From NCBI GenBank assembly GCA_020445605.1, contig JAGRGH010000063.1, positions 1 through 64,000 of the forward strand: 64,000 bases of DNA. Reading direction: 5' to 3'. Of the stretch, positions 1-4,639 are shown one piece after another (position 1 is the first letter of the stretch; each line of letters opens with the position of its first letter). The stretch is from Chromatiales bacterium (GTDB taxonomy: Bacteria > Pseudomonadota > Gammaproteobacteria > JAGRGH01). The position numbers and the translations under genes are program-made. The notes beneath the pieces are model-generated. The model worked only from the letters and a program-made list of their open reading frames with translations. It did no database searches and was not told the origin of the DNA.

Positions 1-93
1 CGAATACTCGAAACTACCCGGGAGAATCTGCTGATCGAACGACACCGGGATCATCTTCATCTGCCCGTAGTCGTAATCCTTGTATCTGGCCAT
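1..93 (-). mobile_element. Insertion sequence edge: transposase N-terminus, cut by window
   Basis: The minus strand reads an ATG at 93-91 followed by an open frame of 31 codons that runs off the left edge. Its N-terminus (MARYKDYDYGQ, then IPVSFD and LPGSFEY) looks like the start of transposases related to the IS1182/IS4 type; the family is recalled from pattern, not searched. The 70-80 bases before the start, beginning near 172, would hold the IS terminal repeat. The element abuts an attC-like site, so it probably inserted into the integron cassette array. Confidence 0.6.
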
Positions 94-164
94 CCGCCCG
101 CCCCTCGAATCGCTGATTTTTATGGCCGATTTCACCAGTACCGGGGTTTTCCGACAGCCTCAAT

Positions 165-308
165 GCCAAGGTAAGCGGCGTTCAGCATGGAGCGACTGCT
201 CGGGGAAAAATGGCGAAACCATGCCCGAGCAGGCGCGGAGTGCTGAACGTCCGAGCGAGCTTGCGAGCGACTTGACCGCCTTGTATGGTCGCTTGTTATA
301 AACAAATT
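165..308 (-). other. attC-like integron recombination site, long form, right end interrupted
   Basis: On the minus strand this follows the stop codon of the coiled-coil gene at 309. It begins with an R''-like TTATAACAAG and a GGTCAAG box, then forms a long imperfect hairpin: an arm at about 225-250 with CGTTCAGCACTCC pairs with an arm at about 180-205 containing GCTGAACG. This is the layout of a long attC (59-base element). The distal end is not a good GTTRRRY core (GCTTACC is found instead) and passes directly into the IS leader, so the site seems degenerate or interrupted. Confidence 0.55.
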
Positions 309-656
309 TCAATCAAAAGACCTCATTTGATCTATCGTTCTGTTTAGCAACTCAAGTTTTTGGTATTGATCTGCCAAAATCAGCTTTATTTTTTTTACCT
401 CCGTTTTCATGGCCAGATATTCTTCATACTCTGAGGATTCGGCTCCTTTGTATATTTCTCTGAATTTGATATCAAATCCGTCCATTCGATTCTTGAGATG
501 TTGTTGCTCTCTAATTGCTTCGCTTATGTTTATTGTGTGTTGCTCAACGGTGTTTTCGAATGCAGAGATTCTGTTCTCCAAGTGATAATTGATGAAACCG
601 AAAACTAAAGACACAATGGTAATCGGAACAGCAGTGATGTTAAATTTCCCTTCCAT
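309..656 (-). CDS. Cassette gene: small membrane-anchored coiled-coil protein
   Basis: This encodes 115 residues starting at the ATG at 656, preceded by an AAAGGAA ribosome site. An earlier in-frame start would overlap the upstream gene. A single hydrophobic segment (about residues 7-22, ITAVPITIVSLVFGF) is followed by a charged heptad-rich region to the C-terminus, suggesting an N-in membrane anchor with a coiled coil outside the cytoplasm. It lies 4 bp downstream of the lipoprotein gene and is probably co-transcribed in the same integron cassette. The DNA is much more AT-rich than the chromosome to the right, a sign of transfer. I do not recognise the family; function is unknown. Confidence 0.7.
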   Translation of the reverse strand: MEGKFNITAVPITIVSLVFGFINYHLENRISAFENTVEQHTINISEAIREQQHLKNRMDGFDIKFREIYKGAESSEYEEYLAMKTEVKKIKLILADQYQKLELLNRTIDQMRSFD

Positions 657-660
657 TGTC

Positions 661-1149
661 TTATTCCTTTTCTTTCTTGTCCTGATCCGCATTCAATTCG
701 TCGATCATTTGCTTTGTCTCCTGGGAAATCGATTGCCATTCCTGATTTTTTAAATCCAATATTCTCTCGTATCGCGTCTGGCGCTTATCTAAATCGTTTA
801 TCTTTTGATCGTGCTCGATCAATTGTCTTTCGTGACGCTTTACGGTTGTATCGATGCTCCTTACTTCTTCTTGCAAAAGCTTATGTTGTTTCGTCAGGCT
901 GTAGTATTGCTGTTTTACTGCTTTCATCTCCGAGGTGTTTGCCTTTCCTTCTACTTGGAGTTGAAGAATTCTATTTTCAAGTCGGAGCTTTTCATTTTCC
1001 AGGGCAAACATATTATTGGTTATTGCTTCGATTGCCCGTTCGTTTCTGTTGCTTCTCTCCTCCGAAACGCCTATTGATCGATAAGTCGAACATGAGCACA
1101 TGCTCAATGCCACGACACCAATAAGAACTGAGCGCCCAACGTTGTCCAT
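661..1149 (-). CDS. Cassette gene: predicted lipoprotein with long coiled coil
   Basis: This encodes 162 residues. The ATG at 1149 is chosen because GGAGGAAG sits just upstream; a TTG five codons earlier lacks such a site. The N-terminus has a short signal segment (SVLIGVVALSM) running into a cysteine pair (CSC), a plausible but non-ideal lipobox. The rest is almost entirely charged helix with heptad character. It is the first gene of a two-gene AT-rich cassette. Lipoprotein plus membrane-anchored coiled-coil partner could bridge the envelope, but this is inference. No family recognised. Confidence 0.7.
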   Translation of the reverse strand: MDNVGRSVLIGVVALSMCSCSTYRSIGVSEERSNRNERAIEAITNNMFALENEKLRLENRILQLQVEGKANTSEMKAVKQQYYSLTKQHKLLQEEVRSIDTTVKRHERQLIEHDQKINDLDKRQTRYERILDLKNQEWQSISQETKQMIDELNADQDKKEKE

Positions 1150-1170
1150 TAGCACTTCCTCCAAGTCTTT

Positions 1171-1260
1171 GCGTATAACGCGTTGTTAAGGGGCGCGGAG
1201 CCGCATCGCGGCGGAGCGTCCCAGTGAGCGAAGCGAACGACTTGAACAAATTGTTAGAGC
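1171..1260 (-). other. attC site of the first integron cassette
   Basis: On the minus strand this starts one base after the stop of the 109-residue cassette gene. It reads GCTCTAACAA (R''), TTGTTCAAG (L''), a self-complementary centre rich in GCTCCGC/GCGGAGC, CTTAACAAC (L') and GCGTTATACGC (R'). That order and spacing over about 90 bases is the classic attC fold. The predicted crossover lies at the G/TT of GTTATAC (1179-1173). It separates cassette 1 from the two-gene cassette. Confidence 0.85.
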
Positions 1261-1261
1261 A

Positions 1262-1591
1262 TTACATATACTCATAGAGAATATCCTTAGGTAGTTCGCT
1301 CTTCTCGCCATTTGGTAGGACACGAAAACCAACGGCAGCCACACTGGCAATTTTGACAAGAAGAAAGTTCCTTCCTGGAATGTACATTTGTAAGATTACA
1401 TCCATTCCCTCAGCTTTATTCATGACTTTGTATACCGAAACCCTTGAGCCTCTAGAGTCACCAACAATCGCTTCTGTTGATTCAGGCGGTAAATCGTTTA
1501 GCTCTTCATCGCTCTTAGCCACTAATTCCTTATATCTTTTCTCAATTTCGGCAACATCCGCTGCCTCATTGATCTGCGTCCATATTTCCAT
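1262..1591 (-). CDS. First integron cassette gene, hypothetical protein
   Basis: This encodes 109 residues of unknown function, acidic and apparently soluble, with no signal peptide or membrane segment. The N-terminal 35 residues look helical (EIEKRYKELVAKSDEEL) and the second half is beta-like and hydrophobic. The ATG lies only 20 bp inside the cassette boundary at 1611, as is usual for cassette genes expressed from a promoter in intI/attI. It is followed at once by an attC. Base composition is clearly lower in GC than intI. No family recognised. Confidence 0.75.
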   Translation of the reverse strand: MEIWTQINEAADVAEIEKRYKELVAKSDEELNDLPPESTEAIVGDSRGSRVSVYKVMNKAEGMDVILQMYIPGRNFLLVKIASVAAVGFRVLPNGEKSELPKDILYEYM

Positions 1592-1604
1592 GATTGCTAT
1601 TTCG

Positions 1605-1611
1605 CTCTAAC
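1605..1611 (-). other. attI/cassette 1 junction (GTTRRRY-type core)
   Basis: The minus strand reads GTTAGAG, matching the integron core site at which cassettes are joined to attI. It is placed between the first cassette gene and intI, the expected position. The exact extent of attI toward intI cannot be set because an insert with inverted ends lies in it (1625-1785). Confidence 0.65.
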
Positions 1612-1624
1612 AGTTATTAGAAGA

Positions 1625-1785
1625 CAAAGTGTCCATAAGCATTCCGGGCACGGGTGTCCATAAGCATTCCGCGGCAGCGGGTGCCGCCTTGCAAGTATGC
1701 CGCATAACCCACTGTTTTTAAATCTTTAGTCCGGCTGGCGGCGCCATCGGCAACGACCTCGTCTGGCGTACTTATGGACACTTTG
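1625..1785. repeat. Insert bounded by a perfect 15-bp inverted repeat in the attI region
   Basis: CAAAGTGTCCATAAG at 1625-1639 is exactly reverse-complementary to CTTATGGACACTTTG at 1771-1785. The 18-mer GTGTCCATAAGCATTCCG is also repeated directly at 1629-1646 and 1654-1671. The TGTCC...GGACA ends look like those of a small non-autonomous element, but no flanking target duplication is evident. It has no coding capacity. It lies between intI and the first cassette and could carry the cassette promoter or have replaced part of attI. Confidence 0.6.
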
Positions 1786-1799
1786 CTCCCTAACCCACC

Positions 1800-1828
1800 T
1801 TGACAAAAAGGACACCCCGACATACTGT
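1800..1828 (+). promoter_or_regulatory. intI promoter (-35/-10)
   Basis: A perfect TTGACA -35 at 1800-1805 is followed after 17 bp by TACTGT at 1823-1828, a weak -10. The spacing is ideal and the intI ATG lies 28 bp further. The -10 is inside the LexA box, so repressor binding would block the promoter. Confidence 0.55.
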
Positions 1829-1842
1829 CTATACATACAGTA
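1823..1842 (+). promoter_or_regulatory. LexA (SOS) box controlling the integron integrase
   Basis: The 20 bases TACTGTCTATACATACAGTA contain CTGT-N8-ACAG with the flanking TA and TA of the E. coli-type SOS consensus. The box overlaps the -10 and ends 14 bp before the intI start codon, just ahead of the AGGAG ribosome site at 1846-1850. LexA control of intI is established for several integrons; here it is read from the sequence. Confidence 0.85.
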
Positions 1843-1856
1843 CTCAGGAGATTGGC

Positions 1857-2885
1857 ATGGGAGCCTCCCCGTTCATGGATTCGGTCCGCGCCGCCGCGCG
1901 GTTTCGCGGGTTCAGCTATCGCACTGAACAAACTTACCTGCATTGGTTTCGCCGCTTCATCCGGTTTCACGGCATGCGTCACCCGCGGGAGATGGCCGAG
2001 CCGGAGGTTACGGCTTTTTTGACCGACCTGGCCGTTCGCCGCAACGTTTCCCCGAGCACCCAGAACCTGGCCCTGTGCGCACTGGTGTTCCTGTACCGGC
2101 ATGTCATCGGTCGGCCGATCGAGGGCATTCAGGCCAGTCGGGCTACGAAATTCGCGCGGATTCCGGTCGTGCTCAACCCCGAGGAGGTTAACGCACTGCT
2201 GGCGCAGCTTTCGGGCGCTCAGCGGCTTGCAGCGAGCCTCATGTATGGCTCGGGCCTGCGGTTGATGGAATGCCTGAGGCTGCGAGTCAAGGACATCGAT
2301 TTCGAACATCGCGCGATCATTGTTCGCGACGGCAAGGGCGGCAAGGACCGTGTCACCACGCTCGCGGATCGCCTGATCGCGCCCCTGAACGAACAGCTCG
2401 CGGCAGCCCGTCGGCTGGTCAATGAGGACCGATCGGCCGGCGTCGCGGGCGTATATCTGCCCAATGCGCTGGATCGCAAATACCCGAGCGCCGGTGTTTC
2501 GTGGGGCTGGCAGTTCGTATTTCCGGCTCAGAACCTTGCGCGCGACGCCCGCAGTGGCATCGTCCGGCGTCATCATCTGTATTCGAAAACGATGCAGCGG
2601 GCCGTGCGCCGTGCGGCCCTTGCCGCCCACATTCAGAAGCGAGCCACCTGCCACACGCTGCGCCACAGCTTTGCGACGCATCTGCTGGAGCGAGGGGCGG
2701 ATATCCGCACGGTGCAGGAACAACTCGGCCACGCGGACCTGAAGACCACGCAGATCTACACGCAGGTGCTTGGCCGGGGTGGAAATGCGGTGCGCAGCCC
2801 GTTGGATTCGATGGGGTCTATGGCGAGCCCCGCAGGCACGCAAGCGGGTGGCCGGCCGAATGGCGCGACGCGGTTCTGGCCCTGA
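1857..2885 (+). CDS. intI: Integron integrase IntI (tyrosine recombinase)
   Basis: This encodes a 342-residue site-specific recombinase that joins and excises attC-borne cassettes at attI. The ATG at 1857 is preceded by AGGAG with 6-bp spacing. A TTG at 1800 would place the promoter inside the gene and is rejected. Residues 7-90 form the SAM-like DNA-binding domain. The catalytic set is visible: R135 (GSGLRL), H266 and R269 (HTLRH), H292 (GH) and Y301 (IYT). The IntI-specific segment between boxes I and II (about 201-242, with [14 protein letters not shown] and RRHHL) separates it from XerC/D. Length is normal and there is no frameshift, so it should be active. It is divergent from the cassettes. 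Confidence 0.95.
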
Positions 2886-3058
2886 TTGTCCTGTGCCCCC
2901 GGCCTGATCCACAGGCGTCGCTCCCGTGTGGCAAATGTTTCTGCCTGTCCCCGGGAAGGGAACCTAGCACGGGTTTGGGACGACGACAAGAACAGGGCGT
3001 CCGGCGCGGTGCGCTGGGCGACCGGTAAGCTGCCGCCGGGCCGACCACCGGAGGCGCC

Positions 3059-3082
3059 ACGCGTAGTGTGAACAGGCCCTAG
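3059..3082 (-). repeat. Solo end of the CTAGGGCC...-type MITE-like family
   Basis: These 24 bases are the exact reverse complement of the first 24 bases of the element at 13410-13680. Only one end is present; nothing like the other end is visible toward intI. The CTA of its terminal CTAG supplies the stop codon of the cytochrome gene (3079-3081), so the insertion or its remnant defines the C-terminus of that protein. Confidence 0.7.
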
Positions 3083-3537
3083 TACGGAACCTTGATCCTG
3101 GCGAGTTCTTCGGTGGTGATTTCCCTCGACCGCTTCAGCGTCCAGGCGCCTTCGCCAACCCAGGCCTTGAACAGACCGAGATTGAGCTTGCGCTCTTGCT
3201 CATCGCTGCCCAGATACTGGTACATGTTGCCGGGTTTGCCATCACCTTTGGTCTGGCCGTCATCCAGCCGGCGCATGATGGCTCCGGTATCCGGCCAGCC
3301 GACGTAAAAGATCAGGTCGGCATAAGTGTCCATGCGCGGGCCCTTCATCGCCTTTTTGAACTGTTCCTTGTCGGCCTTGAATTCCCCCAGGTAAGGCGAT
3401 TGCGCGTCGTGGCAGGCAGCGCATTTCTGCTGCCACAACGGTCGAATGTCGCCTCGATAGGTGGTCTCGGTGGCGCTGGCAGAGGTGGCCAGTAACGCAA
3501 TCAAAGTCACGGTGAATGAGCGAGAGCCGATGTTCAT
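3079..3537 (-). CDS. Secreted monoheme c-type cytochrome
   Basis: This encodes 152 residues. A Sec signal peptide (about residues 1-22, ending near SASA) precedes a cytochrome-c-like domain with a single heme motif, CAACH, at about residues 39-43. Methionines further on could be the sixth ligand. The protein is predicted to be periplasmic and to carry electrons. It stands alone: intI lies behind it and a cupin gene lies upstream on the same strand after a gap of about 190 bp. The TAG stop lies inside a repeat end. The partner enzyme is unknown. Confidence 0.8.
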   Translation of the reverse strand: MNIGSRSFTVTLIALLATSASATETTYRGDIRPLWQQKCAACHDAQSPYLGEFKADKEQFKKAMKGPRMDTYADLIFYVGWPDTGAIMRRLDDGQTKGDGKPGNMYQYLGSDEQERKLNLGLFKAWVGEGAWTLKRSREITTEELARIKVPY

Positions 3538-3727
3538 GATCCCCTCCGTTTCAGGGTTTGCAAGTGCGATTCTGGTTCGTCACAAGAACCCCGGTCATGA
3601 CCTGAATCATCGCTTTCATCGGCATGCCGGCCGTTCAGCACGCTCGGCGACAATCATCGACCGCCGCGTTGTCACAACCATGCCGCGCAATGCCCTTGCG
3701 GCATTGCGCCTGCGAAACGACCCTGGA

Positions 3728-4162
3728 TCAGTCGGTCACGATCGTCGTGTCGGGCTTGCCCTTTTCGAAGATGCCGAACGTGACGGCCTTGAACGGCATG
3801 TCCTTGCTCGGATTGACCGCCTGATGCACCACCCCGCCTGGAAGGTGCACGGTCTCGCCCTTGTGCAGCGTGACCTTGCCTCTGCCGGCGATATCCAGGG
3901 TCAGCGTGCCATCGGCCAGGTAGATGAACTCATCACCCGGATGAAAGTGCTTCTTGCCGACCAGCCCAGGCGCGCCGTCCACGGTCAGCACGATGGCCTC
4001 GTATCCGGGCGCGGTTTGCAGATCAGTCTTCGACAGTATCGTGCGTTGCTGCTTTTGTCCCAGCACGCCAGCGGCCTGAGGTTTTCCCTGCGACGGCGTT
4101 TCGGCATGTGCCGCGCCAAGGAAACAGACCAGGGCAACCGGAACAAGGATCGACTTTTTCAT
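3728..4162 (-). CDS. Secreted cupin-domain protein
   Basis: This encodes 144 residues from the ATG at 4162, which follows GGGAGAA; an upstream in-frame start would add 19 residues before an obvious signal peptide (MKKSILVPVALVCFLGAAHA). The mature part is one small cupin barrel: GxxxHxHPGDEFIYL in motif 1 and a PxGxVHQ motif 2, giving a likely histidine/glutamate metal site. Cupins have many roles, so no substrate is assigned. It is likely periplasmic. Confidence 0.8.
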   Translation of the reverse strand: MKKSILVPVALVCFLGAAHAETPSQGKPQAAGVLGQKQQRTILSKTDLQTAPGYEAIVLTVDGAPGLVGKKHFHPGDEFIYLADGTLTLDIAGRGKVTLHKGETVHLPGGVVHQAVNPSKDMPFKAVTFGIFEKGKPDTTIVTD

Positions 4163-4249
4163 GATCGTTCTCCCAGCCACGTGGCAGAAACGGGCCGCCA
4201 CGATCGCCCACCGAGCCACCCTGGGGTTTCCAGGGATTCAAGAAAGAGG

Positions 4250-4639
4250 CTATGCCGCGCGCGGCGGCACGATGTCGTCGAACGTACCGGGTGCAACCGG
4301 CGCCATCCCGCGTGCGGCGCGTGCCTGGTCGCAGCGCGGGTTCGGCACGCCGTCTTCCCAGGCGACCTTGAAGTCACGACACGGGCTCGCGCGGTCCGCA
4401 TAGATGCCGCAGGCCACCCGTTCGCCGATCGTGCCCTCTAGGGCGATGCATCGCGGCGTCCTGCCGTTCGTGCCCCGCATGGCCACCAGATGCGGGGTGA
4501 CGGGTTCGGTCAGGTGTTCCGGAACCGTACCGCCTGGAGCCGCACGGGTTTCCAGCCAGTGAAACGAGGCGCGAAAGTGCGCGCAGCACGCGCCGCAGGA
4601 CTGACAGACCTGGCTTGGGGTCGGGGGCAGAAAATTCAT
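4250..4639 (-). CDS. YkgJ-family cysteine-cluster protein
   Basis: This encodes 129 residues. It has the cysteine pattern of the YkgJ/UPF0153 group: CQSCGACC at about residues 12-19, a middle cysteine followed by CGIYADRASPCRDF, and a late cysteine. Members are thought to bind a zinc or iron ion, and their function is not established. No signal peptide, so it is cytoplasmic. It is not obviously linked to its neighbours. Confidence 0.8.
   Translation of the reverse strand: MNFLPPTPSQVCQSCGACCAHFRASFHWLETRAAPGGTVPEHLTEPVTPHLVAMRGTNGRTPRCIALEGTIGERVACGIYADRASPCRDFKVAWEDGVPNPRCDQARAARGMAPVAPGTFDDIVPPRAA

Follow-up and report, generated by a model that had tools for sequence, protein, structure and literature searches.

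Two frames in one integron cassette

The window analysed here is the first 64 kb of a 160-kb contig (C63) from a draft genome of 3.36 Mb. On its minus strand lie two frames: P0002 (661-1149; 162 aa), with a signal sequence and lipobox (Cys20), a mature part predicted to be nearly all helix and a Lys/Glu-rich tail, and, downstream of it, P0001 (309-656; 115 aa), in which a single N-terminal hydrophobic segment (approximately residues 8-24) is followed by predicted helices. A gap of 4 nt (657-660) separates the two, and SD-like purine-rich stretches (AGGAAG and AAAGGAA) precede both starts. A first-pass annotation had described two genes 4 bp apart in AT-rich DNA at 309-1149, which the minus-strand coordinates and base composition bear out (39.6% GC over this region against 65.8% for the whole window). 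When the pair region was shuffled 5,000 times with dinucleotides preserved, a minus-strand frame of at least 162 aa arose in 2 shuffles and a pair like P0002 and P0001 in none (0/5,000). A 136-aa antisense frame (714-1124, plus strand) was set aside by judgement, given the SD sites, lipobox and heptads of the minus-strand pair; no homologue decides between the two strands.

The frames belong to an array that adjoins an integron integrase gene, intI (1857-2885, plus strand; TIGR02249, 449.7 bits against a cut-off of 265), with the cassettes oriented opposite to it. Upstream of intI, a TTGACA hexamer (1800-1805) is followed shortly by CTGTCTATACATACAG (1825-1840), which we take from the general consensus to be a LexA-type box, and the combination suggests SOS control of the integrase. 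The stretch between intI and the first cassette (1625-1785) contains a perfect inverted repeat of 15 nt (CAAAGTGTCCATAAG / CTTATGGACACTTTG) together with a doubled GTGTCCATAAGCATTCCG; it resembles a small MITE-type insertion within the attI region.

Cassette 1 encodes P0003 (1262-1591, minus strand; 109 aa), for which no relatives were found in searches that included Pfam, PHROGs, NCBIfam and PADLOC. It starts at GTTAGAGC (1611-1604, minus strand), which is complementary at 8/8 positions to the R'' core (GCTCTAAC) of its own attC (1173-1260, minus strand; L' CTTAAC, R' GTTATAC). Folding of this attC was not significant (z = -0.5), so the cores are the evidence for cassette 1.

Cassette 2, the second in the array that begins at intI, spans 162-1178 on the minus strand and holds both P0002 and P0001. 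It starts at G1179|T1178 within the core GTTATAC (1179-1173), which matches its own R'' (TTATAAC, 301-295) at 6/7 complementary positions. Its attC (162-301, minus strand) opens with that R'', 7 nt beyond the P0001 stop, and continues with L'' GGTCAAG (277-271) and L' CTTACC (175-170), which carry the usual extra base; the bottom strand of 160-300 folded much better than shuffles in the same test with DNA parameters (z = -5.88). Between P0002 and P0001 there was no credible attC: the single RYYYAAC near the junction falls inside the P0001 frame and, on reading, has no partner arm. Matching borders and the lack of a credible intergenic attC together place both genes in one cassette, as the first-pass annotation had proposed, and we conclude that this small chromosomal integron holds, as cassette 2, a genuine two-gene cassette.

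This is an ordinary cassette type with orphan, envelope-type cargo. Documented two-ORF cassettes share with it an adjoining intI, an attC-bounded unit, co-oriented genes and one attC (PMC12444791), whereas cassette 2 carries orphan envelope products, not a toxin-antitoxin or resistance pair, and its attC is cut by an insertion sequence (IS). The last core of that attC is GCATT, not GCGTT, and directly abuts the IS end GAGGCTGTCGGAAAACC; with ATT as its final core and an IS end beyond, the site may be inactive, and the interruption has probably locked cassette 2 in place.

Predicted features and relatives of the two proteins

P0002 is predicted to be a lipoprotein of outer-membrane type, much of it forming long helices. 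The PROSITE PS51257 lipobox rule, in the form scripted here, matched at Cys20 only (MCS|C, in IGVVALSMCSC, with Arg6), with unusual residues (Met and Cys) at -3 and -2; shuffles of the first 35 residues matched it in 265 of 20,000 cases. Hydrophobic periodicity peaked at 3.51 residues in P0002 and 3.53 residues in P0001, with equally strong peaks in 1 and 38 of 5,000 shuffles, respectively. Single-sequence AlphaFold2 models, made with no alignment, placed helices at residues 30-66 and 73-161 of P0002 and at 12-68 and 75-112 of P0001, and most of each helix had a pLDDT above 90. Two predicted helices per protein suggest helical hairpins rather than single long rods. The first-pass description of a lipoprotein with a long coiled coil and an N-anchored coiled coil accordingly stands as to the lipobox, the N-terminal hydrophobic segment and the heptad period, and is less certain as to the coiled coils, each of which may be a hairpin instead of one rod. 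A weak charge bias around its anchor would place P0001 N-in/C-out with its helices in the periplasm, which both proteins could reach. The idea that the two are duplicates of one gene was rejected, as the proteins are unrelated to each other.

Neither protein had a relative among Pfam, PHROGs, NCBIfam or PADLOC profiles, PDB sequences, plasmids or phages (tblastn) or viral contigs, nor in whole genomes from the same class (n = 369) and the same phylum (n = 398). A scan of an 84,980-species collection was also negative; being seeded, it detects close relatives only, and absence of homologues there is not proof. These searches, which returned no homologue of either gene, give no measure of the co-occurrence that the first-pass annotation had proposed to look for in other cassettes and phage-defence islands.

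Weak matches to both proteins are coiled-coil noise reproduced by reversed sequences. The best Pfam match of P0002 (DUF4472, E = 1.8e-05) fell under the curated cut-off and was given no weight, since it runs along the helical repeat onto a coiled-coil model; the best reversed match was weaker (E = 0.014). Against PHROGs, the reversed proteins produced matches equal to or stronger than those of the real sequences, and the best PADLOC match (E = 0.0036), to a coiled-coil stretch of JetC, placed neither protein in a known defence system. Two translated frames in other genomes that P0002 matched were rejected on their resemblance to coiled-coil proteins of the RmuC type (L046) and the M23/EnvC type (L047), and a third stray match (L034) covered 79 residues of a frame of 732 aa, at 29% identity. 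Fold searches with Foldseek, BFVD included, returned generic helical hairpins only, none with E < 0.05.

Possible roles of the pair

Our preferred explanation, with a probability of about one half, is that the cassette 2 pair forms an accessory complex of the envelope, located in the periplasm, in which the lipoprotein and the anchored helical protein bind each other. The two would be translated from one message, and a single N-terminal helix would anchor P0001 in the inner membrane. With the helical parts of both proteins in the periplasm, the helices of P0002 would meet those of P0001 between the membranes, giving a putative inter-membrane complex that we consider plausible. Its benefit would most likely arise only under certain conditions and concern the envelope, for instance by keeping out phage or other attackers or by repairing the envelope.

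Support for such a complex comes from the frames, cassette borders, SD-like stretches, lipobox, heptad period, helicity and adjoining integrase. Two-ORF integron cassettes are documented (PMC12444791), and cassettes commonly encode envelope or secreted proteins, with signal peptides in 11.6% of those in Xanthomonas and 13.2% in Archaea (PMC12444791; PMC9668308). Other cassette-associated loci of this genome encode another lipoprotein, transmembrane proteins, a TIR/SEFIR protein and an AAA ATPase pair. Against a complex, the orphan status of both proteins leaves neither pair nor residue conservation to show, each protein may fold back as a hairpin that needs no partner, and the charge balance at the P0001 anchor favours the periplasmic side only weakly. 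In having two long predicted helices, the proteins share a similar shape with the adaptors MacA, LipC and EmrA, but they have no lipoyl or barrel domains, the Foldseek E-values were approximately 0.5-1.5 and no transporter genes were recognised alongside.

The same models allow the two envelope proteins to share a cassette and a message while acting independently, for example as homo-oligomeric helical hairpins. Each is predicted to have two helices and is possibly self-contained, and the fold matches (prefoldin, MacA, LipC and EmrA) are to generic hairpins and not significant. Joint function is nonetheless favoured by the 4-nt coupling and by the fact that cassette space is usually given to one gene, and independent action strikes us as rather unlikely.

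The pair could also be an unrecognised anti-phage system that stops DNA entry or, at the periplasm, senses damage done to the envelope by phage. Integron cassettes form a large reservoir of uncharacterised genes, part of which proved to be phage defence; in a Vibrio cholerae screen, as cited in PMC12444791, many uncharacterised cassettes, a sizeable share, were anti-phage. Neighbouring cassette-associated loci in this genome carry TIR/SEFIR, AAA ATPase and ParDE-type genes. However, no PADLOC match exceeded coiled-coil noise, and no homologue appeared in defence islands or elsewhere. The earlier proposal of phage defence therefore draws on the general enrichment of defence in integron cassettes and on nothing specific to this pair; on such prior grounds defence is possible for cassette 2, and we hold it to be unlikely. 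Less probable again is a novel trans-envelope device of two proteins, one that would act from the periplasm to exclude phage or abort infection and would move as a single cassette. As a candidate, the two-gene envelope cassette is compact and testable; with both products orphans, only its architecture supports a function.

The first-pass annotation had also raised a spanin-like role, in which a pair of the Rz/Rz1 type, taken from a phage, links both membranes. Rz/Rz1 spanins do combine an inner-membrane-anchored helical protein with a lipoprotein, and P0001 had a sub-threshold match to PHROG 739 ('Rz-like spanin', E = 0.016), the sole family signal for this role. Reversed controls, however, reached E = 0.00043 and 0.021 against other PHROGs. 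The gene order is also reversed, with the lipoprotein first; P0002 is long and helical and not proline-rich, and the genes show neither overlap nor embedding. The pair sits in an integron array, not a phage lysis module, neither a holin nor an endolysin gene was recognised next to it, and it had no match among phages, viral contigs or BFVD. These comparisons do not support the spanin suggestion: P0002 and P0001 are unlikely to act in the manner of spanins, and we think a phage-derived Rz/Rz1-type pair very improbable. Toxin-antitoxin pairs are the typical and commonest two-gene cassette type, and a ParDE pair with an attC-like sequence occurs on another contig of this genome, but P0002 and P0001 matched no toxin-antitoxin family in Pfam, PHROGs or NCBIfam and a lipoprotein with an anchored helix is unlike known classes, which leaves little room for such a system in cassette 2.

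An IS1182-type element at attC cores and other cassette loci

The element abutting cassette 2 occupies 1-161 on the minus strand, with left end GAGGCTGTCGGAAAACC and a transposase start at 93, and runs off the contig. We take it to belong to the IS1182 family; Pfam gives only a DUF772 transposase domain. The four left ends in the genome (C30, C31, C52 and C63) each come after a (G/A)TT at the close of an attC-like hairpin whose R'' lies 65-140 nt upstream, and the three right ends (C21, C32 and C55) are each followed by a GTTARRR-like cassette start, with its own R'' 270-494 nt further on. Either (G/A)TT or GTTARRR borders 7/7 ends of the element in this genome. The loci that show the pattern, here and in relatives, are window 1-161 (minus strand), L020:275, L021:121, L024:2896, L022:8928, L042:3887, L043:3559 and L050-L054.

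Relatives from six other genera (n = 6), with transposases 48-54% identical, showed a similar pattern: five were flanked by GTT left and right, with one shared orientation, and attC was present in 4/4 of these with enough upstream sequence to show it. The sixth was represented by one end only, also after CTAAC. Literature searches for IS1182 with attC returned no description of such elements; the IS1111-attC group, as cited in PMC12444791, is a known precedent. That an IS1182 lineage targets attC cores is better supported than our interpretation of cassette 2, and its presence exactly at these cores across several genera is relevant to the ways in which cassette arrays become broken or frozen. 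Insertion may restore an R'-like core (GTTGAGG) through the left end GAGGC.

Several other loci of the genome carry cassette-like genes. A second integron integrase is found at L020 on C30 (frames 570-2407, minus strand, and 2932-4338, plus strand), together with a two-gene cassette whose genes overlap by ATGA and encode an AAA/STAND-like ATPase (499 aa) and a smaller partner (113 aa), a candidate defence pair. On C52, a cassette-like gene (L021, 211-1647, minus strand) encodes a 478-aa SEFIR/TIR-domain protein, and the adjoining attC is broken by the same IS1182-type element. The cassette gene on C21 (L022, 7257-8555, minus strand) encodes a coiled-coil protein of 432 aa that has membrane segments in its central part and whose weak PADLOC matches to LmuB and LeoBC are probably coiled-coil noise. 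An RHH antitoxin and ParE toxin pair on C50 (L023, 674-1166, plus strand) is followed by an attC-like sequence, and a 174-aa cassette gene product with a lipobox-like start (LSTAC) is encoded on C55 (L043, 3022-3546, minus strand), directly after the right end of the same IS1182-type element.
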